Part shown: positions 4,050 to 55,995 of the stretch, piece after piece
Position numbering within the stretch: position 1 is the first letter of the stretch
Layout of the letters: each line of letters begins with the position of its first letter
From: Siphonodentalium dalli
Taxonomy: Eukaryota; Mollusca; Scaphopoda; Gadilida; Siphonodentaliidae
NCBI GenBank assembly: GCA_032622095.1
Contig: CP136061.1
Location: 256,629,582 to 256,693,581 of the forward strand
DNA length: 64,000 nucleotides
Reading direction: 5' to 3'
Notes under the pieces: generated by a model
What the model was told of the DNA's origin: nothing
Seen by the model: the letters and a program-made list of their open reading frames with translations, nothing else
Databases searched by the model: none
Position numbers and translations under genes: made by a program

Positions 4050-4556
4050 ATATGGATTATCGCTTTAATTAACATATTTTCATCTGTAAATAATACGTAT
4101 GAATTGGACATCCCTGTCTGGAAACGATTCTATCTATGAATATTGATTTTATTTCGATATTATTGTATGTAATTAATGGGACACTTCTTTGTTCTATATA
4201 TAGAACTGTCAGATAGAGACGCCCACTGTGGCGCTCCGAACTAAAGGGAGCCGCAAGATGCCTCCGATTGATTGTAACTATTGTAATAGTAAGTGCGAAT
4301 CAAGTAGATAAGACCTAGATTGTATCATATGCATATTTTCAATGATTATTATTATTGAAAATACCAAAAAATCTCAGATGAAAAAGGCGGTCGTGAATAT
4401 CAGGGACCATTATTGAACATATTTTATAGAAAACAAATTCCAAATAAAATCAATATTAATTGATAGACGCGTTTCCGGACATGGGTGTTCGATTCATATG
4501 TATTATTTCATACACAGAAACTATATAGCTCATGTTGCAGAAGAGATAATCCACCT
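4050..4556. mobile_element. TTAA-flanked MITE (507 bp)
   Basis: Both ends read TTAA plus a long inverted repeat: atatggattatcgc... on the left and ...agataatccacct on the right. Similar ~120-130-bp terminal inverted repeats occur at 5837-6356 and 60278-60747, with a truncated copy at 46927. The mirror copy is 27285-27791, so this insertion predates the inverted duplication. TTAA flanks point to a piggyBac-like target choice, although the terminus does not begin CCC. Confidence 0.75.
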
Positions 4557-7988: not shown

Positions 7989-9596
7989 TTATAGGCGATT
8001 GTCGAAGTGGATTATCTTATGCGTCGCCATGTTGCTTGATTGAGTGAATGATTTCTCGCATATATCGCATTGATACGGTCGATCTCCAGTGTGAATCCTC
8101 TTGTGTGAAGTCAAATTTCCTGACTGGGTGAATGATTTATCACAAATATCACATTTATACGGTCGGTCGTCGAAGTGGATTGTTTTATGCTTCGTCATGC
8201 TGCTTGATGTAGTGAATGCTTTCTCGCATATATTGCACTGATACGGTCGATCGCCAGTGTGAATCCTTTTGTGTACATTCAAGTTTGTCGAGTGCAGAAA
8301 GGATTTGTCACAAACATCACATTTATACGGTCGATCACCAGTGTGAATGAACCTATGCGTCGCCAGGGCGCCTGCTGCAGTGAATGCTTTCGGGCATATA
8401 TCGCATTGATACGGTCGATCACCAGTGTGAATTCTCTTATGCCTCATTAGGGAGCGCGCCGTAGTGAATGTTTTCGGGCATATATCGCATTGATACGGTC
8501 GATCGCCAGTGTGAATCCTTTTGTGCGTAGTCAAGTTTGTCGATTGCAGAAAGGATTTGTCACAAACATCACATTTATACGGTCGATCACCAGTGTGAAT
8601 GAACCTATGCGTCGCCAGGGCGTCTGCTGCAGTGAATGCTTTCGGGCATATATCGCATTGATACGGACGATCACCAGTGTGAATTCTCTTATGCCTCATC
8701 AGGGAGCGCGCCGTAGTGAATGCTTTCGTGCATATATCGCATTGATACGGTCGATCGCCAGTGTGAATCCTTTTGTGTGCAGTCAAGTTTGTCGATTGCA
8801 GAAAGGATTTGTCACAAACATCACATTTATACGGTCGATCACCAGTGTGGATGATCTTATGTGTCGTCAGGGCGCCTGCTGCAGTGCATGCTTTCGGGCA
8901 TATATCACATTGATACGGACGATCACCACTGTGAATTCTCTTATGCCTCGTCAGGGCGCTCGCTGTTGTGAATGCTTTTTCGCATATATCACACTGATAC
9001 GGTCGATCTCCGGTGTGAATTCTCTTGTGTGTTGTCAGTGGTCCTAACAACTTGAATGATTTGTCACAAATATCACATTTATACGGTCGGTCGTCAAAGT
9101 GGATTGTTTTATGCTTCGTCAGATCGCTTGATTGAGTGAATGATTTCTCGCATATATCACACTGATACGGTCGACCGCCAGTGTGAATCCTCTTGAGTGC
9201 AGTTAAATTTCCTGACAGGGTGAATGATTTTCTACAAATATCACATTTATACGGGCGATTACCTGGGCGGATTCTCTTATGATTCGTCATGTCGCTTGAT
9301 TGACTAAAAGCCTCTTCGCATACATGTATATCGCACTGATACGGTAGGTCTCCAGAGTGAATCATTTGGTGCTTACTCAAATCGCCCGACACAGTGAATG
9401 TTTTATCAGTGTGAATTCTCTTGTGTGCAGTCAACTTTACTGAGGTGAATACTTTTTGACAAATATCACATTGACTCTGCTTCACAGGAAAGTATTTTAA
9501 AACTAAAAAAAATATTAGGTCACAGATAAGTGACCACAAAGAGTTCTGGTCTGCCCGATACGGGAATGTTATTGAACGTTTATCAACATCACACAT
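7989..9596 (-). CDS. Poly-C2H2 zinc-finger exon (left arm)
   Basis: A 535-codon frame with about 17-18 tandem C2H2 fingers of the form C-x2-C-x3-F-x5-L-x2-H-x3-H. Linkers are mostly HTGDRPY, with HFDDRPY in some. Such arrays normally bind DNA in the nucleus; the target is unknown. The first ~40 residues before the first finger are hydrophobic and lack a KRAB, BTB or SCAN domain. A pyrimidine-rich stretch and cag lie just before the first finger (about 9477), so this exon may start by splicing and the ATG at 9596 may be intronic. The frame ends after FDNRL at a 2-bp deletion that both arms share, so the lesion predates the inverted duplication. It is a possible truncated gene or a pseudogene. 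The long opposite-strand frames are shadows. Confidence 0.75.
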   Translation of the reverse strand: MCDVDKRSITFPYRADQNSLWSLICDLIFFLVLKYFPVKQSQCDICQKVFTSVKLTAHKRIHTDKTFTVSGDLSKHQMIHSGDLPYQCDIHVCEEAFSQSSDMTNHKRIRPGNRPYKCDICRKSFTLSGNLTALKRIHTGGRPYQCDICEKSFTQSSDLTKHKTIHFDDRPYKCDICDKSFKLLGPLTTHKRIHTGDRPYQCDICEKAFTTASALTRHKRIHSGDRPYQCDICPKACTAAGALTTHKIIHTGDRPYKCDVCDKSFLQSTNLTAHKRIHTGDRPYQCDICTKAFTTARSLMRHKRIHTGDRPYQCDICPKAFTAADALATHRFIHTGDRPYKCDVCDKSFLQSTNLTTHKRIHTGDRPYQCDICPKTFTTARSLMRHKRIHTGDRPYQCDICPKAFTAAGALATHRFIHTGDRPYKCDVCDKSFLHSTNLNVHKRIHTGDRPYQCNICEKAFTTSSSMTKHKTIHFDDRPYKCDICDKSFTQSGNLTSHKRIHTGDRPYQCDICEKSFTQSSNMATHKIIHFDNRL

Positions 9597-9599
9597 TCT

Positions 9600-10100
9600 A
9601 TGTATGGGTTACAGTGGCGTCCATAGATATTTTCTGTATACTTCAATGCTACGACTGTTGATGTGCACTAAAAGGGCGAATTGGAAATGCTCAAACTGCT
9701 TTAAGATTATATGAGCACAATATGGCAATATCCACGACACTTATTGTTGTAGTCTTAACCATAATATTAAATGAAATAAAATTAAAACACGCATTTTTGA
9801 CATAGGTTGTTCTTAATGTTATCAGAGGAATAATACTTCAGCCATACTCTGTACCTATGATAAAGTAATACTAAGCCCAGTCCATGGTAAACCGTCATGT
9901 GTGCAATAAGTTTGGATACACAATTCCGTTATTTCAAAATACCATTCTATTTCTCGTTGTCGTTTTATGACTTAAATTACAGCTATATATAGGGGCGGCA
10001 GGAAGACGGCCCATTTTGGCCATGCCGCTCCTGTACAATATACCTATGTTCACTTTTGTATATTGTATTGTTACAAATATCTATATATTGTACAAATAAA
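9600..10100. other. Upstream region of the ZnF exon, no gene seen
   Basis: AT-rich, mirrored at 19200-19680. It probably holds the intron or promoter of the ZnF locus, but no upstream exon can be defined. A GC-richer block (ggggcggcaggaagacggcc, about 9993) is conserved in both arms. Confidence 0.4.
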
Positions 10101-19178: not shown

Positions 19179-19681
19179 TTATTTGTACAATATATAGATA
19201 TTTGTAACAATACAATATACAAAAGTGAACATAGGTATATTGTACAGGAGCGGCATGGCCAAAATGGGCCGTCTTCCTGCCGCCCCTATATATAGCTGTA
19301 ATTTAAGTCATAAAACGACAACGAGAAATGGAATGGTATTTTGAAATAACGGAATTGTGTATCCAAACTTATTGCACACATGACGGTTTACCATGGACTG
19401 GGCTTAGTATTACTTTATCATAGGTACAGAGTCTGGCTGAAGTATTATTCATCTGATAACATTAAGAACAACCTATGTCAAAAATGCGTGTTTTAATTTT
19501 ATTTCATTTAATATTATGGTTAAGACTACAACAATAAGTGTCGTGGATATTGCCATATTGTGCTCATATAATCTGAAAGCAGTTTGAGCATTTCCAATTC
19601 GCCCTTTTAGTGCACATCAACAGTCGTAGCATTGAAGTATACAGAAAATATCTATGGACGCCACTGTAACCCATACATAGA

Positions 19682-21383
19682 ATGTGTGATGTTGATAAAC
19701 GTTCAATAACATTCCCGTATCGGGCAGACCAGAACTCTTTGTGGTCACTTATCTGTGACCTAATATTTTTTTTAGTTTTAAAATACTTTCCTGTGAAGCA
19801 GAGTCAATGTGATATTTGTCAAAAAGTATTCACCTCAGTAAAGTTGACTGCACACAAGAGAATTCACACTGATAAAACATTCAGTGTGTCGGGCGATTTG
19901 AGTAAGCACCAAATGATTCACTCTGGAGACCTACCGTATCAGTGCGATATACATGTATGCGAAGATACAGAGTATAGCACCTAGTGAATACAGCACCAGC
20001 AGTTAATGCACCAGTGACATTAATCAGCTACAGATGATTATGATGCCAACAACAACAACGGCTTTTAGTCAATCAAGCGACTTGACGAATCATAAGAGAA
20101 TCCGCCCAGGTAATCGCCCGTATAAATGTGATATTTGTAGAAAATCATTCACCCTGTCAGGAAATTTAACTGCACACAAGAGGATTTACACTGGCGGTCG
20201 ACCGTATCAGTGTGATATATGCGAGAAATCATTCACTCAATCAAGCGATCTGACGAAGCATAACACAATCCACTTCGACGACCGTCCGTATAAATGTGAT
20301 ATTTGTGACAAATCATTCAAGTTGTTAGGACCACTGACAACACACAAGAGAATTCACACCGGAGATCGACCGTATCAGTGTGATATATGCGAAAAAGCAT
20401 TCACAACAGCGAGCGCCCTGACGAGGCATAAGAGAATTCACAGTGGTGATCGTCCGTATCAATGCGATATATGCCCGAAAGCATACACTGCAGCAGGCGC
20501 CCTGACGACACATAAGATCATCCACACTGGTGATCGACCGTATAAATGTGATGTTTGTGACAAATCCTTTCTGCAATCGACAAACTTGACTGCACACAAA
20601 GGGATTCACACTGGCGATCGACCGTATCAGTGCGATATATGCACGAAAGCATTCACTACGGCGCGCTCCCTGATGAGGCATAAGAGAATTCACACTGGTG
20701 ATCGTCCGTATCAATGCGATATATGCCCGAAAGCATTCACTGCAGCAGACGCCCTGGCGACGCATAGGTTCATTCACACTGGTGATCGACCGTATAAATG
20801 TGATGTTTGTGACAAATCCTTTCTGCACTCGACAAACTTGACTGCACACAAAAGGATTCACACTGGCGATCGACCGTATCAATGCGATATATGCGAGAAA
20901 GCATTCACTACGGCGCGCTCCCTGATGAGGCATAAGAGAATTCACACTGGTGATCGACCGTATCAATGCGATATATGCCTGAAACCATTCACTGCAGCAG
21001 GCGCCCTGGCGACGCATAGGTTCATTCACACTGGTGATAGACCGTATAAATGTGATGTTTGTGACAAATCCTTTCTGCACTCGACAAACTTGAATGTACA
21101 CAAAAGGATTCACACTGGCGATCGACCGTATCAGTGCAATATATGCGAGAAAGCATTCACTACATCAAGCAGCATGACGAAGCATAAAACAATCCACTTC
21201 GACGACCGACCGTATACATGTGATATATGTGATAAATCATTCACCCAGTCAGGAAATTTGACTTCACACAAGAGGATTCACACTGGAGATCGACCGTATC
21301 AATGCGATATATGCGAGAAATCATTCACTCAATCAAGCAACATGGCGACGCATAAGATAATCCACTTCGACAATCGCCTATAA
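19682..21383 (+). pseudogene. Poly-C2H2 zinc-finger exon (right arm), disrupted
   Basis: Counterpart of 9596-7989 with about 17-18 fingers in the same order and a few substitutions. A foreign insertion of roughly 95 bp (about 19969-20059, gatacagagtatagcacc ... ccaacaacaacaac) lies inside the CDIHVCE-AFSQSSD finger and introduces a stop at 19982. The frame re-opens at 20034 and runs to 21383, ending at the same FDNRL 2-bp deletion as the left arm. A probable splice acceptor precedes the first finger near 19802 (gtgaagcag). It is probably not translated as one protein. Confidence 0.8.
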
Positions 21384-23180: not shown

Positions 23181-26100
23181 TCTATATATATAAAACCCGT
23201 CGTCTGTGTGTGTGTCTGTCTGTGTGTGTATAACTCGGTCACGCTTTTGGCGCGTTTATAACTTTTCAACCATGCGTCCTATGTGGCCCAAATTTGTACC
23301 CCGACCTATAGTGTGTCATAAAAGGTGACTCACCAAATTTCACGCCGATTGGTTAAAGCAAACCTGAGATCTAACATGGTCCCCAAATGCAGCATTTGCA
23401 CTCAAGTAGACACTATTTCTTATGACGTTTGTCGAAATGACGTCATTGACGTCGAACACAAACCAATACTTGCTTTGCTATTGTAGGCGAAACTTCCATG
23501 CGCTCTACCAAAGCGTTGTTGGAAATTAATGTGTCAGTTCAGGTTCAGTGTGAATTTATGTTGATTTTGTCGCGGAAGTGCATGTATAGTGGGGTGTAGA
23601 GTCAAGACTCGAACGTTCTATACCGTCGTTGGGAATGGGTGGATGTAGTGGTTTGCAGAGCCAAGACTCGAACGTTCGTCGTTGGGAATGGGTGCTAATA
23701 TGGTATTTTAATTTGCCAGTTGGGTTTGAACACAAGTAAAGAATGCTGTCTTTGATACGAAAGTTGTGCATTGAGTGTGGAATCGAAGGAGTACCGGAAA
23801 AACGTGGGTAGGCGGTACCCAGTGGGTACCGTGAACTCAGTAAATTCGCCGGAACTCAGTTGAAAAAAGCACATTCCCGGGACAGGACTAATAATAGGGC
23901 ATACAGTGTAAACAATACTGCCGACGCTAATTAATGCTCTTTTAATCTTTCGGTTGAGTGCAAATCTGATACAAGAATAAATGTTTAAAAGATCACAATG
24001 CGCGAAGCGCACGCGTTTTAAATTCATATAATGTGCGCGAAGCGCATAAAGGGGCTGCAGGCCTCTACCCCGCTAAATAAAGGTTCAGAATTGAGCCTGT
24101 TTCAGTCAGTATAGATTTAGTAAAATATCTCGATTGTTGCGTTCCATATATGTGCATGCATATACGTGGGTTGGGGAGATGATGTTGGGGGCAAAAATAC
24201 AGTTTTATTGAAATAAAGTTTTCATACAAATGGGCCGCGCAATGCATGGCGAATGGACAGTCTGACCTCCCGCCAGTGGGTACCGTAAACTCAGTAAATT
24301 CGCCAAACTCAGTTAGAAAAATCACATTCTCGGGACAGGCCTAATAATAGGGCCTATAGTGTAAGTAATACTGCCGACGCTAATTAATGTTCTTTTAATC
24401 TTTCGGTTGAGTGCAAATCTGATAACAGAATAAATGTTTAAAAGATCACAATGTGCGCGAAGCGCACGCAGTTTAAATTCATATAATGTGCGCGAAGCTC
24501 ACTACGAGGCTGCAGACCCCTCCCCGCTAAATAAAGGTTCCGAATAGAGTCTGTTTCAGTTAGTAGGCCCTATAGATAAAGTAAAATATCTTGATTGTTG
24601 CGTTCCATATGTGCATGCATATATATACGTGGGTTGGGGAGATGATGTTGGGGGCAAAAATACAGTTTTATTGAAATAAAGTTTTCATACAAATGGGCCG
24701 CGCAATGCATGGCGAATGGACAGTCTGACCTCCCGCCAGTGGGTACCGTAAACTCAGTAAATTCGCCAAACTCAGTTAGAAAAATCACATTCTCGGGACA
24801 GGCCTAATAATAGGGCCTATAGTGTAAGTAATACTGCCGACGCTAATTAATGTTCTTTTAATCTTTCGGTTGAGTGCAAATCTGATAAAAGAATAAATGT
24901 TTAAAAGATCACAATGTGCGCGAAGCGCACGCAGTTTAAATTCATATAATGTGCGCGAAGCTCACTACGAGGCTGCAGACCCCTCCCCGCTAAATAAAGT
25001 TTCCGAATAGAGTCTGTTTCAGTTAGTAGGCCCTATATAGATAAAGTAAAATATCTTGATTGTTGCGTTCCATATGTGCATGCATATATATACGTGGGTT
25101 GGGGAGATGATGTTGGGGGCAAAAATACAGTTTTATTGAAATAAAGTTTTCATACAAATGGGCCGCGCAATGCATGGCAACAAGCTCCCAAATGAAGGCT
25201 CCTGAATTGAGTATGTTTCGATTGGTGCATAGTAGTATTTAAATAATATACTGATTTTGTTTCGTGCAATATGTGCATGCGCATATGTAGACTGGGTGTG
25301 TAGAAATACAGTTTTAGTGAAATAAAGTGTTCCAACGCGCATCCAGTAACAAAAAAAGAGAAGCATGACCATGAAAGCGGACACTAGAAAATGACAAAGA
25401 ACATTTATATACCCGTCATGTAGTGGGGTGCAGAGTCAAGACTCGAACATTCGTCGTTGGGCATGGGTGCTAATATGGTATTTTAATTCGCCAGTTGGGT
25501 TTGAACATAAGTAAATAATGCTGTCTTTGATACGAAAGTTGTGCATTGAGTGTGGTATCGAAGGAGTACCGGTATACACGGAAGATGGCGAATGGACAGT
25601 CTGATCTCCCGCCAGTGGGTACCGTGAACCCGCCAAACTCAGTTAGAAAAATCACATTCACGGGACAGGCCTAATAATAGGGCCTGCAGTGTAAACAATA
25701 CTGCCGACGCTAATTAATGTTCTTTAAATCTTTCGGTTGAGTGCAAATCTGATAAAAGAATAATTGTTTAAAAGATCACAATGTGCGCGAAGCGCACGGA
25801 AGCGCATGCAGTTTAAATTCATATAATGTGCGCGAAGCTCACTAAGGGGCTGCAGGCCCCCCCCCCCCGCTAAATAAAGGTTCCGAATAGAGCCTGCTTC
25901 AGTTACTAGGCCCTATAGATAAAGTAAAATATCTTGATTGTTGCGTTCCATATGTACCTGCATATACGTGGGTTTGGGAGATGATGGGGGGGGGGGCAGA
26001 AATATAGTTTTATTGAAATAAAGTCTTCATACAAATGGGCCACGCAGTACAGGGCGTGTGATCATTATAGGCTGCATGCTGAATACAACTTCCAAAGGGA

Positions 26101-32689: not shown

Positions 32690-34779
32690 AATCACACAAC
32701 ACGCTCATGTCTCTAAAGACATCATATCTCTAGAACAACATGAGCTTGACTCTCCTTGCGAAATTATATGGGCAAAGCTTGTCATACCAGGCTCAAAAAA
32801 CATCCATGTCGCAGCATACTACAAACCAGACGAAAACGATATTGACAGCGTAAATGGCCTAGAAACATCCGTAAAGAAAGCCCCCAAAGATGGCCACCTG
32901 TGGATTCTTGGTGACTTTAACCTACCAAAATACAATTGGACCACAAACGAAACTGCCACCGACTGAAAAAATACAAAACTCTATGATAAACTCACAAATG
33001 CAATGTCCGATGCAAATCTCGAACAGGTTGTTAAAATACCCACAAGGGGAAAAAATACCCTTGACATATTCTACCTAAATCAGCCAACTCTGATCCATAA
33101 TACACGAACACTTCCCAGCCTTGGTACATCTGATCATGACATTGTCTACCACGAAGTCACCATAAACAAAAGACATCTAAAAAAGCCTGCCAGGAAAGTC
33201 TATCTCTACCATAAGGCAAACTGGCCTGCCATAAAAGCAGAACTCCATTCCTTCCAAACTTTCTACAAGACGCAGAGTGCAATTCTAAATCTAAATGTAG
33301 AACAGAAATGGCAGTTGATCAAAGAAAAAAATATCTGAACTAATATCTAAGCACATCCCAACCAAGACACTTAGTAGCAGACAACATGCACCATGGATAA
33401 CAGCTGATCTTAAGAAGCTGATAAAAAACGCACTCGTCTTCACAAATATATCAGAAAACGCAGGTATAAAAACACCGAAAATCTTCAGTCCAAAGAAAGA
33501 GCCCTTAAACATGCCATCCAAAGAAAATCCAGAAAAGCTTACTGGGACCATATAGAATCCATCATAACTGAAGACAACAAAAACTGCCCGGACCTAACAG
33601 AAAACACCACCAAGCCCAGCAAAAAATTCTGGTCCTTCATAAAACATCAGAAATCAGAAAATAACGGTGTCGCTCCTCTTAAAGTAGATGGTGAAGTGAT
33701 CACAGACCCCACCAAGCAGGCCGAAGCTCTAAACGCCCAGTTCCACTCTGCATTTACTAAGCCTCAACCTCTAAACCTATCCCACATCTGCGAACTTAAA
33801 TCCCTGATCTGTCCTAAGGATACTGACATGCCAGATGTAGAAATAACTACAAATGGTGTTTGTGCCGCACTCTCAAGGTTAAAACCCAACAAAGCTTATG
33901 GTATCGACCAAATTTCACCCCGCTTCCTCAAAGAGGTAAGAGACGAAATCTCTGCAATAATTGCAGAACTCTTCCAGAGTTCTTTGAACTCAGGCACTGT
34001 CCCTTCTGACTGGAAAGTAGCAATTGTTTCCCCAATATTCAAAAAAGGCTCCAAATCCAAACCTGAAAACTATCGCCCCATCTCACTCACATGTATTCTT
34101 AGCAAAACCCTTCATATCATAGTATCCAACATCATGTCCCACCTCAACGAAAAGCAACTACTACATCAAAACCAACGTGGATTCCGACCCAAACGAAGCT
34201 GTGAAACACAGCTTATCACATTCATGAATGATATCTTTGAAAACATGACAAAATGGACTCAAACCGATGTAGTTGTCATGGACTTCTCCAAGGCCTTTGA
34301 TAAAGTGGACCATAGCAGACTTATTCTTAAAATGAGACGACTTGGCATAAACACATCTGTTACAAATTGGATTGCCGCCTTCATATCACATCGGACTCAA
34401 AAAGTCCAAGTCAATGGAAAAGAATCAAAATTTCTTCCCGTACTAGCAGGTGTCCCCCAAGGGTCTATCCTTGGCCCTTGTCTCTTCTTAATCTATATAA
34501 ATGACCTCCCCACAAACCTCAGCTGTCAGGCCCGCCTCTTCGCAGACGATACTGTTGTGTATTGTGCTATCTCCTCTAAAATTGACTGTACTATCCTACA
34601 AAATGATCTGCACAAACTTGAAAACTGGGAGAAAGAATGGCTTCTGTCATTCAACCCTAGTAAATGCGAAATCATACGAATCGCTCGTAAAGAAAACCCT
34701 ATTCTCCATGACTACACACTCCATAACCAATTACTTAAATCAACAGAAACTACAAAATATCTCGGCGTAACTGTGACGG
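32690..34779 (+). pseudogene. 5'-truncated CR1/L2-like LINE ORF2 (endonuclease + RT)
   Basis: ORF2 of a non-LTR retrotransposon. The endonuclease part (32690-33300) retains WILGDFNLPKYNW and the C-terminal TSDHDIV motif, but its N-terminal catalytic part is missing and it has a TGA at about 32964. A one-base insertion in an A run near 33330 shifts the frame; the linker then leads into reverse transcriptase (33696 on) with KPNKAYGIDQISPRFL, PIFKKGSKSKPENYRPISLT, the motif A DFSKAFDKVDH, motif B AGVPQGSILGP, catalytic FADD (LFADDTVVY) and KYLGV. It ends abruptly at 34779 where LTR-like sequence starts, so the thumb and 3' UTR are missing. The NYRPISLT/FRPKRSCETQL wording suggests CR1/L2/Crack. 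Inactive. Confidence 0.9.
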
Positions 34780-35790
34780 TGTAATTTAGCCCTAGTTTAT
34801 ATACAACTAATACAAGTTAATACTGACAACTAGCAGCTAACATATTCATCCATATCACCGGTATTTACGACATCCCGTTTACCCTCTCTACTTCGCTGTT
34901 TCGATCCGTCCCTGTAACTATTACTCTGTCACTTTAGTCCAATGCTAAACGCTCTAGTACTGCCACTTCAAATAGTACAGGTAAGCTCGCAGCTGATTGG
35001 ATGACACACAGCCGCGCGTAAATTATCAAAAGGTCAAATATTTCGCGGGGTTTCCAGATTGTTTTACCTGTCTATCAGAAAGTTATTGTCTTCAAGTTTG
35101 AGTTTATTTTGTCGTAAAGATGTCGCCAAGTTTTGATTATGGTTGAACGCAGATTATGCTGACATAGTGGCCTATGTCTCATTGAACTGGTATGTTCACA
35201 GTTTCTATATTTTATCGTTATAATCATGTTTTTATAAATACTTTTGTCTTCAAGTAGTTCAGCATAGAGTTTGTCCATTTTGACATAAAGTATATTTCCT
35301 ATTTTAATTATATTTTAATGTGATGCCAGTTTGTAGATATCTCAATTAAATAGATATAGATTGGATATCTGGCATATCTTGTATTTTCAGGAACTCCTCA
35401 AGTTCCTTTAACATATATTTGTGTATTCACATATTCGTGCTTATCATGCAAATGGTAATATATTTGCATTTGGTTGCAGGGCCAATATCTATATTGGCAT
35501 ATTATAACACTCTGTGTGTTAGATGTATTATCAGACTATGCCAGTCTGTGGATGATGTTCGATTGTATGTGCTGGTGGTGATGATGATAATCAAGATGTG
35601 TTATTCTTATAAATGAATGAATAAATGCTATATGAAGACATCAAAAGGTAATATGAACTTTCCATTGACCCTGCCCACCAAGACTGAGATTCATTGACAG
35701 AGCCCATACTGCCAAAGCTAACTTTATAAATTTAATGTCAAAGGCTCGAGGACATTAATACTTAAATGGACCCATAGTAACCCTCTGACA
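34780..35790 (+). mobile_element. Candidate long terminal repeat (LTR) cutting the LINE
   Basis: It begins TGTAATTTAG directly after the LINE motif KYLGV-TV and ends CCTCTGACA, so TG...CA termini are present. A polyadenylation signal (aataaa) is near 35629. It is followed after two bases by a primer-binding-like sequence. There is no second LTR copy in the window and no target duplication to confirm, so this rests on the termini, the abrupt LINE break and the PBS. Confidence 0.45.
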
Positions 35791-40261: not shown

Positions 40262-41520
40262 TTTTCACACATATCACATTTACACAGACGATCGTCCGAC
40301 TGAATTAGTGTATGTCTGTTCAAGTCGCTAGCTTTAGTGAATGCTTTCTCGCATATATCGCACTGATATGGACGATCTACGGTGTGAATCATCTATGTAC
40401 AGTCAATTGTTCATTACGAGCGAATATTTTTTCACAAAATCACATCTATACGGGCGCTCACAAGTATATTCGTTTATGTTTTGCCAGGCTGATCGAATGT
40501 CTAAATGCTTTCTCGCATATATCACATCGATACGGGCGTTCGTCGAAATTAATTATCTTGTGACTCGTTAGATGGCCTGATGTAGTGAATGCATTATCAC
40601 ATATATCGCACTGATACGGTCGATCTCCAGTGTGAATCCTCGTGTGTGCCAGCAATGTACCTGAACGGATGAATGATTTGCCACAAATATCACATTGATG
40701 CGGGCGGTCGTTGAAGTGGATTAGTTTATGTTTCGTCATATTGCTTGATTTATTGAATGGTTTCTCACATATATCACATTTATACGGGCGATCGCCGGTG
40801 TGGGTTCTTTTGTGACTCGTTAAATGGCCTGATGTAGAAAATGTTTTTTCGCATATATCGCACTGATATGGACGAACTCCGGTGTGAATCCTCTTATGTA
40901 CAGTCAAATGTTCATTACGAGCGAACGATTTTTCACAAATATCACATTTATACGGGCGCTCACCAGAGTGGATTCTTTTATGTGTAGTCAGGTTGTTCGA
41001 ATGACTAAATTCGTTCTCGCATATATCACATCGATACGGGCGATCGCCGAAATGAATGTTTTTATGCATTGTTAGATGACTTGATTGTTTGAATGCTTTC
41101 TCGCATATATCACACTGATACGGTCTGTCGCTAGCGTGCATCTTCTTGTGCGAAGTCAAACTTCCCAACTTCAGAAAAGATTTTTGACAAATATCACATT
41201 TATACGAGTGGTCACCTGAGTGAATTCATTTATGATTCGTGAGGTCACTTGCGTCACTAAATGATTTCTCGTGCATGTCGCACTGAAATGGTGGATCATC
41301 AATGTGTATTCGCTTAATATGTACAGTCAATTGTCCTTCAAGAAGGAATGATTTTTCACAAATATCACATCGATATGGGCGATCGCTGGGGATTATTTTT
41401 TGTTTCTTCATGTCGATTTATTTAGTAAATGTTTTCCCGCATGTGTCACATTGATGCGGGCGATCATAAGCGTGGATTCTCTTTCTAAGTTCATATGTTT
41501 AGTCCGGTTGCTTGGGTGAA
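40262..41520 (-). pseudogene. Poly-C2H2 zinc-finger locus C
   Basis: The best frame (41168-40458, 236 codons) contains eight complete C2H2 fingers with varied helices (QSSHLTM, HSNNLTT, RNEHLTV, TSGHLTS, KSSNMTK, RSGTLLA and others), unlike the homogenised arrays of the palindrome. Upstream finger coding (41411-41229) is in the same frame but separated by TGA at 41226-41228, where the usual HKRIH becomes HK-stop-IH. Downstream fingers to 40262 are frameshifted. One nonsense mutation divides a ~14-finger array; the eight-finger part could still be translated if started internally. Confidence 0.75.
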
Positions 41521-41693
41521 TCGTTCGTGCATATACCACAATAATGCGTTCGATCGCATACCGGTCCTATGTGCATCATCAAGTGTGAAGTCAATTGTCT
41601 GGTCTATAAGAAAAGTAACCACACGGTATTCTGGTCTGCTCGATATGGGATGCTTATTAAACGTTTGTCAATACCACACACTACATGTAAATG

Positions 41694-42154
41694 TAGGAAT
41701 CAGGGAGCTAAATATGTTCCAGAGTCACTATCGAATACACCGTGGAACCCTAAAGGTGAAGGATAATTGAAGAATGGCCTTCACCTCATACAGGTGATCC
41801 ATTATTTAATGATGAGATCTTGTTTATTTGATTTGTACATCATATCTAAATAATTTAAACTGGTGAATTAATTGGGAAAAGGATTTTTGTGAGTGTGAAA
41901 TTTATTTAACTAGTTGTGGTATTTCTGGGTTTTTCCAGGTAAAATTTTGCTGCGGGATAACCCTGTCTTACACCTGAGGAATTATTTCGAAAAGTAAACA
42001 CTCGACCTATGGTTTTTCTTGCATTTTCAGGATGATCTGGTGTCAGTCTAACTGGGTAAACATCACTGGAATGGCTCGGAGGCTGAAATTCTGTGAATAT
42101 GGCTGAAACGTTAACACTGTCGCCTATGGGAAAACATTTAGTTCAGTGATTCCT
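41694..42154 (+). repeat. 461-bp direct repeat, left copy
   Basis: By eye it is identical to 45839-46299 over its whole length. It begins (T)AGGAATCAGGGAGCTAAAT and ends TAAACTGAA-inverse, i.e. ttcagtgattcct; the first 26 and last 26 bases form an imperfect inverted repeat with a perfect 8-bp tip (AGGAATCA/TGATTCCT). It has possible splice signals (ccttgcattttcag near 42025). It lies just upstream of the endonuclease gene and just past the end of the transposase gene. Confidence 0.92.
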
Positions 42155-42237
42155 ATAGGAAAAACCGCCGAAATTTTAAAATTCACGTGTCTCCATGGTA
42201 AGTTGTTAGTTTCATATTTTATGATTTACAAGTAATA

Positions 42238-42618
42238 ATGGCATCATTTTGGCAAGATTTAAGGAAGAAAATGTTAGATTCATCGCAAAATAGTCCAGAG
42301 AGTGAGTGTCGTGTGTGGACGAAGGGAAAATCTGGGAGATATGGCCGTGTTCGAGTGTCCTGGATGCTTTTGGATCCAGCATTACCAGGATCGGATGCTT
42401 ATTTAGCACACCGAATGGCATTTCTGATTTCCAAAGAGTGGACCATTATTAATCCTGAATTTATAGGCAAAGAAGTGAGCCATCTCTGTCACAATACTTT
42501 ATGCATTAATGTCAACCATTTAACGCTGGAGACGACGAGCGACAACATGAAGCGCAACGCGTGCAAGAGATTCAAAACATGTTTTGGTCACCACGCCGAA
42601 CCACCATGCATGATATAA
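42238..42618 (+). CDS. I-PpoI-like His-Me finger (His-Cys box) endonuclease
   Basis: A 126-residue protein, close to the small size of His-Cys box homing endonucleases. The C-terminal half has SHLCHNTLC (81-89), NHL (93-95), TSDNMKRNAC (100-109) then C115, H118/H119 and C124. These fit the family plan: H82 as general base, N103 as metal ligand, and two structural zinc sites (C84, C89, H94 with C109 region; C24/C109/C115/H118-119/C124). R59 in AHRMAFLI may match the catalytic-site arginine. These assignments follow the known I-PpoI fold and were made by eye. The predicted role is cleavage of double-stranded DNA. ATG at 42238 follows a 461-bp repeat by 83 bp. It converges on the transposase gene. 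No intron. All key residues seem intact. Confidence 0.78.
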   Translation: MASFWQDLRKKMLDSSQNSPESECRVWTKGKSGRYGRVRVSWMLLDPALPGSDAYLAHRMAFLISKEWTIINPEFIGKEVSHLCHNTLCINVNHLTLETTSDNMKRNACKRFKTCFGHHAEPPCMI

Positions 42619-42648
42619 ATATTTTAAAAGTAAGATTATGTTACTCAC

Positions 42649-45142
42649 GTTGTTTTTTTTCCGTAAACTGTATGTGTGGTCCTCATGACGACGTTTAATT
42701 TTTCGTTTATTTTTACCCGCGGGAGCATTTTTAATTTCGGTTGGTGTTTTCAACGGTAATGTTTCTTTCTCATAAGTGTCATCTTTATTATTCTGAATGT
42801 CCTTATAACTTTTGAAGAGTTGGAAGCGACGTTTATTTCTCCTAGCTTTGAAGTCAGGTGTTTCTTGTCTCAATTTATCTTGTGTCGATTTGTTCTGCAA
42901 TTGATTCAGCTGTTTTGCAGAATGAGATCCGGGTGATATAGGACACAAACACTTTTGGCACAGTTTGACTATCGATTCGCCTGGACCGTTATTAACTGAA
43001 TGAACCGCGCTGTGAACTCTCCCTGTATAATTCCTAGAAAATGTTGTAGATCTCGGAACAGACCTCCTGATACTTCTGTTTACAGCTTCAGATTTTTGGG
43101 TTGTCGTCCCAAATTTTGTTTTCAGCATTGCATCGCGTCCAAGTCGCCAGTTCACACACTCACGGAGTCTGTCTTCGGATACTTTGGAGCTATTTATTTT
43201 GAAATCGCTTTGTAGGTATCTGCTTTTTATGCGCCAAGTCCCTTTTGAATTGCAGGCAAACGAATATTGTCCACACAGTTTGTGTCTTCCCTGATAACAG
43301 TCCACTATACTGTCAACAATGTATGTCAGCGCACACAATAACTTTGTAGTGTCCACTCCAAATTGTTTGTGCGCCTTATTGAGTTCGCTATTACATCGTG
43401 CCATTAAGTCATCGGAGAAGCCATTGCATACCTTCTTCCTCTCCGCTTTAGTTTTACCGGGCATGATGTCGATAACAGGAACAGAATTTTTAATTTTTTT
43501 CCTTATACTTGCAGTAAGATGTCGAGTGTCATACAGTTGCTCAGGCTTGATGGATGATTTACCGGAGTCGTAGAACTGCTCTGCACCCATGAATGGTTTT
43601 GAGTCTTGATCCGTTGTGAGGTAATGTACAGACAGACCACTGGAATTCAGCTGTTCTAAACATTCAGTGTTCCAATCTTTCTCATTTCCAATTGTGTCAG
43701 TTGATTTTAGATTAGCACTGCATTTGGAAGAATTTGCCAAACAGTCATTTCCATTTTTGTGTTTACCATGGTTTGCACACAGCTTGCTTTTGTTTGTGAG
43801 TGCTATAACTTGTTTCTTGTGGGTCATGTTTTCAACATGTAGGTATGAACACTGTGTTGCAGGCTGGAATGGTGTTCGTCCAACTCCAGAATATAGTGGA
43901 TTTGAGTAAATTCCATCCGATTCAATGTTTATAACATCACTCTGCGCATTTCGCAATTTATTCACTTCCTTCAGTTCCTCACGTCTGTGCCCCAAATCAT
44001 CTGTGTTGACCTCTACTATTTGTCTGCACACCTTGTTTGATGCAGCTTGCATGCCTCTCCCAGACGGTGGTGGAATGTTACACGTCATCAACAGTTTTCG
44101 AACATTGGTATTTCCGATGGGCATCTGTGTAAGAGCAATCTGCAGGGCTTCATTAATTCTGGCAGATTTCCGCCCTTTGTTGCCAGTTTCAATCTCATCG
44201 TATAATATGAAGTACTTAGAAATGTAGCTACATATATTGCAGCCAACTTTTTCTCTGCAGACTAATCCTCTTCTGTCTTCGGCACCCGGAATATATGATA
44301 AATACCCAAGACAATTTGGATGGATGTGTCGATGCTCTGAAAACACGTCATTCCACATATCGGTCATACGTTTGACGTGCACAAGCCGATATGTATCATT
44401 CTCAGCCCTGAAAAGTAAAAAAACAGCTATTCAAGTCCAAATGGATGGGATAAATCTGTTAAATTGATTTGTGGCTCTTCAGTTGTTTATATCTTGCATA
44501 TCATGCATTACAGAAATATTCGACCATTATTTTGTAGTTGGGGGGGGGGGGGGGAGAGGGTAACTGTGCTAAGTTCTTAATTGTTGAGTGACACTGATAG
44601 CTGATGTGGTATACTATACAAGATGTTTGTATTATACTGTGATATCTATATGAATGTAGGGGGCAAGCCACTTCTGGGGAGATAATTCAATCAAAGGGAG
44701 GTAATCCTATTACTTTTTATGCATTAATTAGCATTTTCAAGCAGATCAATGAGAGTTAATCCTTCTTATGGTGACAGTGGGGATCATTTATTCAATTTTA
44801 ATTATGAGTTTAGACAATTTATTGCAAGTAAATGTTGAATGTGTATATTTACCATGTATCTGTTTCCTTTCCAGCAAGAACTTTGACATCAGATGTTTCC
44901 TTGATCAGAGGTCGTAGAAGTTTTACTGTTGTTTCTTGGTTATCTGCTGGTTGAACTGGAGCGGCGATATCTGAGGTAACCATGTCATATTTGTCTTTTG
45001 GTACCCTTACGTATCTGCAACTGTCATTATCTATTACAATATCATTCACCGGCTGCATTTTTTTGTGATCAGGCTGTCTTAAACTCGAAAAACCTGTTTG
45101 TTTTAATTGCTGTATTCGGCGTAATTTTGGGATTTTAGACAT
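42649..45142 (-). CDS. Mutator-like (MULE) transposase, spliced
   Basis: Exon 1 is 45142-44853 and exon 2 is 44407-42649. The donor (TG|GTAAAT) and acceptor (tttttacttttcag|GGC) keep the frame (W-A-E-N-D-T-Y) and total 2,049 nt, exactly 683 codons. Exon 2 carries the metazoan Mutator-like transposase layout: a Cys-rich start (LVCREKVGCNIC), CNIPPPSGRGMQAASNKV, first catalytic Asp in NIESDGIY, TIGNEKDWN, second Asp in LTTDQDSKPF, YDTRHL, then YQGRHKLCGQYSFAC and TTQKSEAVNRSI, where the final Glu may lie. Family DDE assignment is by eye. A donor GTGAGT follows exon 2 at 42648; splicing to an acceptor at 42155 (cctatag) would add ESLN-stop encoded in the terminal repeat. It catalyses excision and integration of its element. 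No internal stop, so it may be active. Confidence 0.82.
44853..45142 (-). CDS. MULE transposase exon 1
   Basis: Ninety-six codons plus two bases beginning MSKIPKLRRIQQLKQ, basic and likely unstructured, ending ETDT-W. Supported by the consistent splice phase with 44407. The frame otherwise ends two codons later at TAA inside the intron. Confidence 0.7.
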
Positions 45143-45838
45143 AATTGAGCCAATTAATTCTCACAAATTATAACAAGGAGTTTATTGTGTCAGTGTCTCA
45201 GTAAATTCCAGTCATAAAGTGAGATGTTGAATTATTTGCTTTGCTTACAAGAGCTGGGATATGATACTGTTGTGTAATACAGAACAACCTGTTATTTCTC
45301 CTGAGGATACAGTCATATGCAAACTTGGGACTGTTTGTGCTAATTAAACAGAGTGTGCCATGCCATCTGATACAATTTCATGCCTGAGGCTTAGTCTAAT
45401 ACAGTTTCATGCTGTTCACATATTTCCATTGACTGAAGCTTGCTTCATGTTGCTATTAAAGTATTTTAAATTCCCATTTTTCTGTTAAATTAGGTCCATT
45501 TTTATTATAAATTGCCAAATTCTGAAGGAAAAGAGTTAAAATTGGTCAAGATATGCCTCTCAAAATGTAGCTTAATATTTCCTCTTCAATTTAGTAATAT
45601 TAGGGTGTATATGGGAATAACGCATATTTCAGATTGTACAAAATAAAAAACCTAGTTAAATTGAAAAAAAAGAAAGAAAAAAAAGTTTATTTTGATGACT
45701 GACACTAATATTCGGGAGGCATCATATTGAAAAAATAGAACCAATACTGCCCGCTAGAACTCATTTTTAGTTTCAGTAAGGTCTATATCTGGATAAAATA
45801 CTGTATGCAATGCCATTTAATGCATATGTACATATATA

Positions 45839-46299
45839 TAGGAATCAGGGAGCTAAATATGTTCCAGAGTCACTATCGAATACACCGTGGAACCCTAAAG
45901 GTGAAGGATAATTGAAGAATGGCCTTCACCTCATACAGGTGATCCATTATTTAATGATGAGATCTTGTTTATTTGATTTGTACATCATATCTAAATAATT
46001 TAAACTGGTGAATTAATTGGGAAAAGGATTTTTGTGAGTGTGAAATTTATTTAACTAGTTGTGGTATTTCTGGGTTTTTCCAGGTAAAATTTTGCTGCGG
46101 GATAACCCTGTCTTACACCTGAGGAATTATTTCGAAAAGTAAACACTCGACCTATGGTTTTTCTTGCATTTTCAGGATGATCTGGTGTCAGTCTAACTGG
46201 GTAAACATCACTGGAATGGCTCGGAGGCTGAAATTCTGTGAATATGGCTGAAACGTTAACACTGTCGCCTATGGGAAAACATTTAGTTCAGTGATTCCT
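45839..46299 (+). repeat. 461-bp direct repeat, right copy
   Basis: Same sequence and orientation as 41694-42154 (offset 4,145 bp). It lies about 700 bp upstream of transposase exon 1 on the minus strand, so it could carry its promoter. The outer flanks differ from those of the left copy. Confidence 0.92.
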
Positions 46300-52289: not shown

Positions 52290-52650
52290 ATAGGAAGGTG
52301 GGGTGGTGTGGGCTGTACCGCGCTAAACCCAATACACATGAGAATTATGGGATGAACCAAGTGAGGACATTCAGATGTCGATTGGATAGACAGGGTGGCA
52401 TGGGCTGTACCACGCTATACCCGTATTGGAGTATTCTCACCAGTAAAGAGGGAGAAGCTAAAAAGCGAGGGGTGGCATGGGCTGAACCATGCTAAACCCG
52501 GAGAGCTAAGAGACACGGGGTGGTATGGGCTGTTCCGTGCTAAACCAAGGAAAAATCCACAGCAAAAGTCAAAACAACGAGAGAGTAGCCATCCACAGTT
52601 CGAAGTGTTTGGATGGTGTGGGCTGTACCAAGCTAGACCCATGGAGATAT
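52290..52650 (+). repeat. Five copies of a ggtgtgggctgtacc..gctaaaccc motif
   Basis: A ~28-nt conserved motif occurs at about 52300, 52395, 52480, 52520 and 52612 with irregular spacing. Translated, four of them read GWxGLxxA(K/R)P. The third-position changes are mostly conservative where it is in frame, but one copy is out of frame, so both a protein repeat and an RNA element are possible. Confidence 0.75.
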
Positions 52651-53168
52651 GTCTTCGTGCCACAAATCACTATCTGGAAATACTACTTCTAAAAGCCGGA
52701 GACATTGAAGAAAATCCTGGACCTAAGAAGAAAGCAAAAACATATGCGATGGTGAAACAATCAATATACCCATGTGCTGTGTGTGAAGATGAGGTGTCAT
52801 GGACAGATACAGGGGTCTGCTGTGACGACTGTCAAAACTGGCATCATAAAACATGCATCGAGATGGACAAGGTGGAATTCAAAACACATGAGGAAAGACC
52901 CAGCCTACCCTGGAAGTGCTTCAAGTGCGACAGTATACACATCAGTAGCTTCACTTTCCACAACTATGAGATACATACATCCAACTACTATCAACCCCTC
53001 AGTATGTTAGACTCTACAATTGACAGCCTATGCTCTGCTTTCAACCCGACAGAAACTAGTAGTCCATTACCACACAGTGACCAAAATAACACCAGAAAAA
53101 GCTCATCTAGACTAAGTTCACAGAGCAATGTATACCACACAACACCAAAAGAAAACTCAGAATATTGA
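52395..53168 (+). CDS. LINE protein with 2A peptide followed by PHD finger
   Basis: A 257-codon frame. Residues 100-110 (AGDIEENPGP) form a canonical 2A motif D-x-E-x-N-P-G-P (52701-52724), which makes ribosomes skip the last Gly-Pro bond and releases two products. Just after it, residues ~125-180 hold a PHD-type Cys4-His-Cys3 finger (CAVC, CDDC, WHHKTC, KCFKC). PHD fingers and 2A motifs are both known in CR1-like LINEs. The upstream part contains three in-frame GWxGLxxAKP-type repeats. The PHD product ends with a Ser/Thr-rich tail, and the endonuclease frame follows in another phase overlapping at 53165. The true start codon is unknown. Confidence 0.85.
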   Translation: MAWAVPRYTRIGVFSPVKREKLKSEGWHGLNHAKPGELRDTGWYGLFRAKPRKNPQQKSKQRESSHPQFEVFGWCGLYQARPMEICLRATNHYLEILLLKAGDIEENPGPKKKAKTYAMVKQSIYPCAVCEDEVSWTDTGVCCDDCQNWHHKTCIEMDKVEFKTHEERPSLPWKCFKCDSIHISSFTFHNYEIHTSNYYQPLSMLDSTIDSLCSAFNPTETSSPLPHSDQNNTRKSSSRLSSQSNVYHTTPKENSEY

Positions 53169-55995
53169 CTGTAAATTGTAGAAGCCCACCAAGCAACAAA
53201 GCCGAACTCGCAGTTGCAGTGCAATATCTAAAATCTGACATCATTCTAGGCACTGAATCTTGGCTAAAAGGCATAACCCCAGGAAACCCACCAACACCAC
53301 AGGCAATAAAATCAGCTGAGGTTTTCCCAGAACAGTACTGTGCCTTTCGGAACGACAGAACTGGATTAGGGGGCGGAGTCTTCGTTGCATATCATGAAGA
53401 CATTATAGCAGTGGAGAAACCAGAATATGTCACCAATTGCGAGATTGAATGGGCAAAAATAACCATCCAAAAGGGGAGAGATCTGTATGTCGCCAGTTTA
53501 TACATGCCAAACAGGAACATGGAAACAGTTAAACAACTAAAAGAATCAATGAAGAAGTACACTGCAGATAAAACCAATACGTACATAATAGGAGGCGACT
53601 TTAATTGCCCGGACATCAATTGGGAGAAACTGACAATACGGGAAGGAGCACCTGATAAAGAAATCCAACAGGCGCTGTTGGATGTTTGCATTGGAAATGG
53701 AATGACACAGATGCATGAGGAACCAACGAGAGAAGATAATTTACTGGACATAATACTAACAAATAATCCATCACTAATAAGAACATCAAACAATGTCCCA
53801 GGTATATCTGACCATGCCATGATTGTTACAGACTGCATACCATCGCCAAAGTACCAATGAAAAGGAGCGAAGGAAGTTTACCTTTTCAATAAAGCAAACT
53901 GGACAGAAGTCGCAGCAGACATGAACAAACTGGGCGAAGAGATTACGACATTACCATCAGATACAGACATAAACACCATGTGGGAGAAATTTAAAGGAGG
54001 AGTCTCAGAAATAGTGAAAAACAGGGTCCCAACACTGGCAATAAGAAAGAGAGGAAAGCTACCATGGATGAATAAAAAACTGTTACATCAAATTAGGAAA
54101 AAGGAGAAACTTTACAAGACAGCTAAGAAAACAGAGACATGGGATAAATACAGACACCAACAAAGATTATGTATAAGAGAACTCAGACGAACGGAAAGTG
54201 ACTATATCAACAAAATCATTGAAGAAGGAAAAAAAAGAAGACCACAAAACCCTTCTGGCGCTTCATGAAAGCAAAAAAACAAGACAACATCGGCGTACCT
54301 CCACTCAAGAAAGGAACAACACTAACCACCAACAGAATAGAGACGTCTGAATTACTCATCAACTAGTTCCGGTCAGTCTTCACCAAAGACCTAGGTCACG
54401 AACTACCAGACCTACCAAAAAAGGCACTGGATATAGAGAATGTGGACATCGACAAACCAGGGGTAGTAAAACTACTATCAGACATAAAAACATCCAAAGC
54501 ACCTGGCCCAGATGACATCCCAAACAAGATCCCGAAGATCTGTGCCGAGCAAGCAGCAACATCACTCACAGCGATATTCCAACGATCGCTTGACACAGGT
54601 AAATTACCAACTGACTGGCTCGAGGCTAACATCACACCAATATTCAAAAAGGGCTACGTCCACCTGCCAGAAAACTACAGGCCCGTATCACTAACATCGA
54701 TGGCCTGCAAAATCCTTGTGCACATACTATGCCGTCAAATCAGAAACCACCTTGAGAAACACTACATGCTTACCGACAGAAACCATAGATTCCGCTCTGT
54801 ACACTCCTGCGTGACACAGCTGATCATTGTAACACATGAACTGATGGAGAATTACGATAACGATATCCAGACAGACATAGCAGTATTGGATTTTTCAAAG
54901 GCATTCGACACAGTACATGTACCTCACCGAAGCCTACTACACAAACTGAACGGCTATGGTGTTACAAATCAAACTCTCAAGTGGATAGACACCTTCCTAA
55001 CAAGACGACAGATGAGAGTAGCAGTGGGAGGGGAATTCTCGAAACATGTAGCAGTGGAGTCCGGCTTACCTCAGGGTAATATACTGTACTCGACCCTCTC
55101 CTCTTCCTGTGTCACATAAACGACTTACCACAAGCAGTCACATCTCAAGTCAAACTCTTCGCCGATGATTGTCTCCTTTATCGCCAAATAAAGAATCAAC
55201 AAGACCATATTGCTCTTCAAGAAGACCTGAAGTCATTAGAAAAATGGGCAGATGTTTGGGGCATGCGGTTCAATGCGAAGAAATGTAACATCCTGTCAAT
55301 AAAACCCACGTCGACGCACATGTACCAACTGGATAACCAAATACTGGTACTCCAAACAGTTGAAGAAACACAATATCTAGGGCTAACCAACACCCTCACT
55401 TGGTCATCCCACATATCCAAGATAGTAAGAAAAGCAGGCAGCACCCTTGGATTCCTCCGTCGAAACCTCAGGAGAGCGGACAAAAAACACACAAACAATG
55501 GCCTATGAATCCACAGTAAGATCCTCCCTTGAATATGCAGCTGAAGTTTGGGATCCACACCAGCAAAAAGACATCAACACAATAGAAAGAATCAACAAAA
55601 GAGGGGTGCGTTTCATCGAAAACAACTACCACACAAGAACAAAAGGGGCTGTAACCGAAATGCTAAATGAACAACTCATGGAGCCACTTCATCAAAGAAG
55701 AAACACGATGAGAATGAAGCTGTTCGGCAGAGTAGTGGATGGGCTGGTGCCGGCTATTCTATCAAACGACATACTTATACCAAAAAAGAAAGGAAGGAAA
55801 ATAAAGGCGAAAAAGTACACAGGCTTTGTAACATCAAACCTTGTCGAAAAGGAGGAGTGTATCAACTCAAACTCCATCGAAAGGATACGAGCAAAAACGG
55901 CACAATTCAGAAACTCGTTCTTTGTTCGCGCTATCGAGGAGTGGAACAGCCTGGACGAGAGCACATGCGAAGTAACAACGGACACAACATCATAG
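53165..55995 (+). pseudogene. LINE ORF2: AP endonuclease, reverse transcriptase, C-terminal domain
   Basis: Endonuclease motifs: TVNCRS, GTESWL, GGDFNCPDINW, LDIILTNNP and GISDHAMIV. A stop/frameshift at 53860 is followed by the linker (NKANWTEVAADMNK..., 53880-54268). RT: SKAPGPDDIPNKI, PIFKKG, NYRPVSLTSMACK, LDFSKAFDTVH, SGLPQGNIL, a frameshift at about 55095, then LFADDCLLY (about 55153), YLGLT and RNLRRADK. Another frameshift near 55500 leads to the C-terminal SSLEYAAEVWDPH... and RNSFFVRAIEEWN. The aspartates of the RT active site are intact. At least four frameshifts, so inactive. Confidence 0.9.

Follow-up and report, generated by a model that had tools for sequence, protein, structure and literature searches.

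A probably recent KolobokP insertion with an I-PpoI-like nuclease gene between identical long direct repeats in the scaphopod Siphonodentalium dalli

KolobokP DNA transposons were described by Kojima and Bao (2022, Mob DNA 13:24; PMC9587614), and the main text of that paper provides the comparison for the element studied here, a two-gene unit in a 64,000-bp stretch of the genome of Siphonodentalium dalli (assembly GCA_032622095.1, contig CP136061.1, positions 256,629,582 to 256,693,581, forward strand; hereafter the window). According to that text, KolobokP comprises 228 families in seven animal phyla, bivalves being the richest. Its long terminal direct repeats (LTDRs) are about 450 or 660 bp long, have 5'-RR..YY-3' ends and carry their own perfect or imperfect inverted tips of 11–18 bp. 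A target duplication of 3–5 bp, departing from TTAA, surrounds monomers, multimers and solo LTDRs alike; a strong target preference was not seen, and insertion biased by the nuclease was doubted. The DDD/E transposase is accompanied downstream, on the other strand, by a convergent I-PpoI-like nuclease gene whose product keeps the I-PpoI residues S97, H98, H110, E114 and N119 together with eight zinc ligands. Two zinc fingers are given for the transposase, a CCHC finger after the first D and another between the second D and the last E, following a C/DxxH signature that is common to MuDR and Kolobok. Autonomous oyster families measure 4,022–4,748 bp, and the internal region (INT) of KolobokP-1_MeMe is bounded by TATA..TATA. 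Long terminal direct repeats are, per the authors, unique to KolobokP among DNA transposons, and the role of the nuclease was left open (PMC9587614). One literature search found no other papers using the name.

Judged by its anatomy, its protein residues and its protein relatives, the window element almost certainly belongs to KolobokP, and it is very probably a recent insertion of an autonomous, young copy. Six of the seven KolobokP features tested were found: the LTDR, its tips, the target duplication, the gene pair, the nuclease residues and the finger before the last E. The exact direct repeat (41694–42154 and 45839–46299) is identical at 461 of 461 bases and comes to 458 bp (GGAATCA...TGATTCC) once its ends are fixed by the inverted tips and the target duplication. 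These tips match at 15 of 18 positions and end in GG..CC. The whole LTDR-INT-LTDR unit spans 41696–46298 (4,603 bp), with TGTA/TGTA flanking it on the outside and TATA/TATA flanking the INT on the inside; no further LTDR pieces of at least 14 bases were found elsewhere in the window. The nuclease and transposase genes converge on opposite strands, their raw open reading frames overlapping at 42520–42618. The picture given by a first-pass annotation, of two convergent genes between long identical direct repeats each having its own tips, is thus real. The likenesses to KolobokP extend to the LTDR length of about 450 bp, the GG..CC ends, the 4-bp duplication, the TATA..TATA bounds of the INT, the total length and the occurrence of monomers, solo LTDRs and multimers; a 28-bp block inside the repeat and LTDR-4 bp-LTDR junctions, both treated below, were by contrast not found in the main-text description (PMC9587614).

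The host genome (2.23 Gb in 9 contigs) was searched with the LTDR, giving 43 matches with the best 40 of 2,093 candidates scored, and all 27 loci outside the window were read. Both ends were present in 17 copies: eight complete monomers including that of the window, one dimer, one internally deleted monomer and seven solo LTDRs. The remaining loci were truncated, interrupted or partial. Target duplications bounded 15 of the 17 (7/8 monomers, the dimer and 7/7 solo LTDRs); they are 4 bp long, one extending to 6 bp in a TA stretch, and the ends of L047 and L050, each with one changed tip base, were placed by the 458-bp length. Twelve different 4-base duplications were recorded and all flanks differ, and the insertions are therefore independent. 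The duplications begin with T in 13 of 15 cases and end with A in 13 of 15, against the absence of strong preference in the published account (PMC9587614); this lean does not tell which protein causes it.

Eight of 10 units have left and right LTDRs that differ at 0–2 positions; the count rises to 11 in L037 and 14 in L038, and L040, whose right repeat is truncated, was omitted from the comparison. The same exact LTDR sequence is shared by the window, L032, L033 and the dimer, so the identity of the window's two repeats is evidence of a young family and not of homogenisation of this copy. Between the two INTs of the dimer there are one substitution and two indels, which is what a recent in-place duplication should leave. 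Among ten INTs compared, all start with TATAGGAA and nine end with TATA (TATG in L035). The nuclease frame is stop-free in 10 of 11 units. Transposase exon 2 is stop-free in 8 of 11, and in L036 the alignment of exon 1 is split in two. Assembly error, which the first-pass annotation had named as a possible source of the repeats, is ruled out, since the unit occurs on several host contigs with differing flanks and duplications. The other refuting condition of that annotation, transposase copies stripped of nuclease and repeats, did not refute it: the other complete monomers and the dimer keep both, and solo LTDRs without genes exist, as is also reported for KolobokP (PMC9587614).

The nuclease gene begins 84 bp past the left LTDR. 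Its product matches the Pfam family zf-His_Me_endon (E-value 3.2e-11) and resembles I-PpoI (1evw_A; E-value 1.5e-4), and in the alignment S97, H98, H110, E114 and N119 of I-PpoI correspond to S81, H82, H94, E98 and N103. Candidate catalytic residues are H82 and N103, and eight putative zinc ligands can be assigned: C24, C84, C89, H94, C109, C115, H118 or H119, and C124. C24 and the ligands after C109 were placed by the numbering of I-PpoI. The alignment bears out the earlier remark that the catalytic and zinc residues appear complete. No relatives of the nuclease were found in the protein database, and structure prediction from the single sequence was poor (predicted local distance difference test, pLDDT, 54). 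I-PpoI and the other His-Cys box homing nucleases of group I introns share the core SHLCHNTxC..N..HL..E...DN...N.C and the zinc ligands with this protein; unlike them, it is borne by a DNA transposon and not by an intron.

Joining transposase exons 1 and 2 over the GT...AG intron at 44408–44852 gives an open frame of 725 codons. At the 3' end a donor-like GTGAGTAA lies at 42648, and the homology of relatives stops near 42650. At an E-value of at most 0.001 there were 96 relatives, and the named organisms among them were bivalves (Mytilus, Pinctada, Mercenaria, Saccostrea) or a bacterial symbiont of Lucinoma; none were found in viral contigs or prokaryote genome contigs. When the query was aligned with 20 hand-chosen relatives out of the 96 (21 rows), D156, D258, H288 and C362 were present in all rows and D285, H367, C370, C377 and E432 in 20. 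The DxxH motif at 285–288 and the finger C362-H367-C370-C377 thus lie between the second D and the last E (E432). In the predicted structure (pLDDT 81; predicted template modelling score 0.75), D156 sits on a strand, D258 just past a strand and E432 on a helix. A Foldseek search with this model returned nothing at an E-value of at most 0.001, the best hit being the P element transposase (3.2e-3).

Distant families also populate the genome. When the transposase was used as query (best 76 of 641 candidates scored), the matches listed included rows at 38% and 36% identity, some of them tandem. Eight units follow one another at exactly 4,495 bp on C2 and nine at 4,478–4,485 bp on C7, and in other groups the spacing ranges from 4.5 to 8 kb. 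A search by nuclease (best 150 of 425 candidates scored) gave 138 of 150 rows that were stop-free by hand count, mostly at 28–42% identity, some rows being pieces of one gene. Of the 76 transposase rows, among which two are pieces of one unit, 63 have one of these nuclease rows downstream, on the other strand and no more than 1.3 kb away. One repeat each, of 451 and 452 bp, was found in the array units L070 and L071, 90–96 bp from the nuclease and with tips matching at 16 of 16 positions; the tip search was confined to lengths of 430–499 and 640–689 bp. L071 carries an in-frame TGA at query residue 567, near the C-terminus, which is seen in many of the 36% matches and is probably the natural stop. 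At C8:164865764-164914633 there is an array of nuclease genes spaced by about 4,041 bp, with no transposase among the scored rows.

Several observations weigh against reading the unit as a recent, autonomous KolobokP insertion, an assignment made on anatomy, residues and protein relatives. The CCHC finger expected after the first D is not clear: C202 and C221 occur in 21 of 21 rows, H205 in 13, H208 in 15 and C214 in 12. Two of the 17 bounded copies, L038 and the deleted monomer L039, have no target duplication. Among the young copies the ratio of nonsynonymous to synonymous changes per site in the nuclease is 0.89 from 18 changes, which gives no clear sign of constraint and is too few to tell. 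The older broken copies L062, L063, L064, L067 and L068 have a broken nuclease as well, and the older copy L061 (82%) has one without a stop. Finally, 13 of the 76 transposase rows have no nuclease row among the best 150 of 425. One of these, L070, has a nuclease on direct reading, although as read it is without the C-terminal zinc residues; in the other 12 the nuclease may fall outside the best 150 or be lacking.

A working scheme for this KolobokP element can be proposed. The DDE transposase would recognise the inverted tips of each LTDR and would move LTDR-INT-LTDR, or a lone LTDR, making 4-bp duplications. The nuclease would cut within the LTDR or at its ends, as Kojima and Bao propose, and repair from the other LTDR or from a sister copy would then add LTDR-INT units, producing tandem arrays and offsetting repeat loss (PMC9587614). 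We give about an even chance to a nuclease that cuts the LTDR with repair adding units. A part for the nuclease in copying, suggested in the first-pass annotation, is plausible; the insertion bias suggested with it is doubted in PMC9587614, though the duplications lean towards T..A.

The nuclease might instead act on a circle, cutting abutted LTDR ends and thereby aiding integration rather than cutting within the LTDR, an option also raised in PMC9587614 that we consider possible though rather doubtful. A search for a right tip followed, at a fixed spacing of 4 bp, by a left tip (TGATTCC-NNNN-GGAATCA) found three such junctions in the genome and none for the reversed control, which is in favour of this option. 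At L058, which is the same locus as L033, a young monomer bearing the duplication TAAA stands directly against an old repeat of 83% identity; at L059 and L060 two old repeats abut, 93.7% and 94.1% alike, with spacers ACAT and TATA. L060 might also have arisen by loss of the INT from a single element, between its inner TATAs, an explanation that does not apply to L058 and L059 because their spacers, TAAA and ACAT, do not fit. By a rough reckoning, exact abutment is unexpected from random insertion into 2.2 Gb. Similar junctions are made by IS30-type elements, which differ in being bacterial; their transposase is of another lineage and they are not known to have such a nuclease gene. IS30 can insert beside its own inverted repeats and makes end-to-end junctions, which the three LTDR-4 bp-LTDR junctions resemble; it joins and uses abutted ends by itself, so that an extra nuclease would in principle be unneeded (PMC9333248). 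Cutting at a circle junction also sits poorly with tip sequences that vary between families, while the inner 28-bp block is common to them. The palindrome TTCCTATAGGAA, which has its only copy in the window at the LTDR/INT junction, is left as a weak idea for the nuclease site: chance alone would give the looser TTCCNNNNGGAA 0.8 times, and distant families have a different junction.

The 28-bp block emerged as the best 28-base match among the LTDRs of the window, L070 and L071, with 25, 25 and 24 of 28 bases shared. Its site is constant, 19–21 bp from the nuclease-side tip, although the tips differ between families and the rest of the LTDR does not align. For each pair, 200 trials with randomised repeats gave at most 21 of 28, and matches elsewhere than in the last 60 bp reached 18–19 at best. 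Upstream stretches of L081, L082 and L083, picked by nuclease and not by block, were also inspected. The block is present in L082, another family, at 24/28 and 19 bp from the tip, and in L083 at 28/28, with the same block and tip as L071. It was not seen in the L081 stretch (15/28; shuffle maximum 18), where the nuclease match starts at residue 22 and the stretch may be the wrong one; counting this as a miss, four of five families looked at have the block.

A looser, 26-bp version of the block, in which 21 bases are fixed, has 5,069 occurrences genome-wide, against none for the reversed control. Nine block loci were read out of the first 100 listed, and eight of them align as repeats of two tip types, at 83% or more to that of the window or at 59–99% to that of L071; among the loci read, an automatic tip finder recovered clean tips in L073–L075 only. 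Spacings of about 1.33–1.39 kb recur at many of the 100 listed places. The ninth locus, L080 (C1:1915000-1918150), has two blocks in opposite directions 555 bp apart, and the same spacing and orientation at C1:3466400/3466955 suggest a fold-back derivative with inverted repeats.

The block is unlike a plain transposase end site in being one-sided and outliving the tips; an end site would be expected on both ends. It may serve as a target of the nuclease, as an assembly site or as a promoter of the nuclease gene. Tentatively, it may be the site on which the homing nuclease, or a joint nuclease-transposase complex, acts in cis, which we hold to be possible rather than probable. A promoter of the nuclease is less likely: the block does lie about 104–115 bp before the nuclease ATG in three families, but it also occurs in arrays with a period of about 1.35 kb, too short for both genes, with the caveat that these loci were chosen by block and are not independent.

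Another origin of the layout is unlikely, namely that it was left behind by replicative transposition of the cointegrate type, starting from a circle with one LTDR, the inner TATA/TATA being an old duplication. A cointegrate would indeed leave TGTA/TGTA outside and TATA/TATA inside; however, TATA is self-complementary, and in two distant families the inner flanks are inverted (TTTA and TAAA in L071, GCTATA and TATAGC in L070), so that an inner direct duplication is not the rule.

It is very improbable that the unit is a Mutator-like element (MULE) that acquired a homing nuclease and long direct ends. In its favour, the only Pfam match of the transposase frame at an E-value of at most 1 is PF20700 (E-value 1.8e-46), called 'Mutator', and several relatives are labelled 'Mutator-like transposase' in databases. 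The Pfam name accounts for a reader's taking the unit for a MULE. Besides the Pfam name, the element shares the C/DxxH signature with MuDR/MULE elements and differs from them in duplication length, end structure and the finger before the last E. MuDR target duplications are 8–11 bp, against 4 bp here, and the long inverted ends are missing. The TTAA duplication of the original Kolobok definition is not seen either (0 of 15). DxxH with a finger before the last E is the pattern given for Kolobok, and published relatives of the same layout are classed there (PMC9587614). On duplication length, ends and finger pattern a MULE was therefore rejected. The earlier 'Mutator-like DDE transposase' thus stands as to DDE and falls as to Mutator-like, the gene being that of KolobokP and having an intron besides. 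The layout is indeed unlike that of ordinary MULEs, as had been remarked, but it is already published as KolobokP (PMC9587614). Chance bracketing of both genes by two unrelated solo 458-bp insertions has negligible probability and was rejected: solo LTDRs with their own duplications do occur in the genome, but eight complete monomers and the dimer all show the LTDR-INT-LTDR order, and a single duplication bounds each of 7/8 monomers and the dimer.

The features of the KolobokP element are collected in Table 1.

Table 1. Coordinates of the KolobokP element and its parts in the window
Feature	Position	Strand	Remarks
Left target site duplication TGTA	41692–41695		4 bp
Left LTDR	41696–42153	+	458 bp, GG...CC
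28-bp block AAACGTTAACACTGTCGCCTATGGGAAA	42106–42133	+	20 bp inside tip; common to distant families
12-bp palindrome TTCCTATAGGAA	42150–42161		Spans LTDR/INT junction; sole copy in window
INT	42154–45840		3,687 bp, TATA at both ends
I-PpoI-like His-Me (His-Cys box) nuclease, 126 aa	42238–42618	+	Pfam and I-PpoI similarity
Transposase exon 2 (PF20700)	42520–44407	-	Homology to relatives stops near 42650; true 3' end uncertain
Transposase intron, GT...AG	44408–44852	-	Frame kept when exons joined
Transposase exon 1	44853–45142	-	ATG start at 45142
Right LTDR	45841–46298	+	Identical to left LTDR
Second copy of 28-bp block	46251–46278	+	26-bp core at 46253
Right target site duplication TGTA	46299–46302		Matches left TGTA

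The insertion lies immediately upstream of an array of C2H2 zinc fingers. No empty paralogous site was found in the window, the homology of the left flank (41196–41695) stopping 6 bp before the insertion point; this flank is 77.8% alike to zinc-finger loci at 9524–9604 and 19674–19754. The C2H2 zinc-finger frames at 7989–9596 (-) and 20034–21383 (+) are closely alike and oppositely oriented; they are part of several arrays in the window that are built of 84-bp finger repeats. By reading alone, open frames at 33696–34784 and 52395–55995 are like parts of non-LTR retrotransposons (reverse transcriptase, endonuclease). A tandem array with a 463-bp unit (3.0 copies, 94% matches) occupies 23819–25178.

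The lineage is a published one, and the value of the S. dalli element is that of a clean, young and well-populated example. Its host genome contains copies that are near-identical and mostly open, together with monomers, a dimer and solo repeats, and has long arrays of distant families besides. The 28-bp block is a concrete candidate for a cut or binding site, by which the proposal of 'induced unequal crossover' becomes testable; the block and the abutted repeats both make the nuclease's role testable. If the block is the nuclease's site, the genome carries thousands of copies of it, and cuts at these places would promote unequal exchange and make arrays grow; a homing nuclease would then have been turned into an array-maker.

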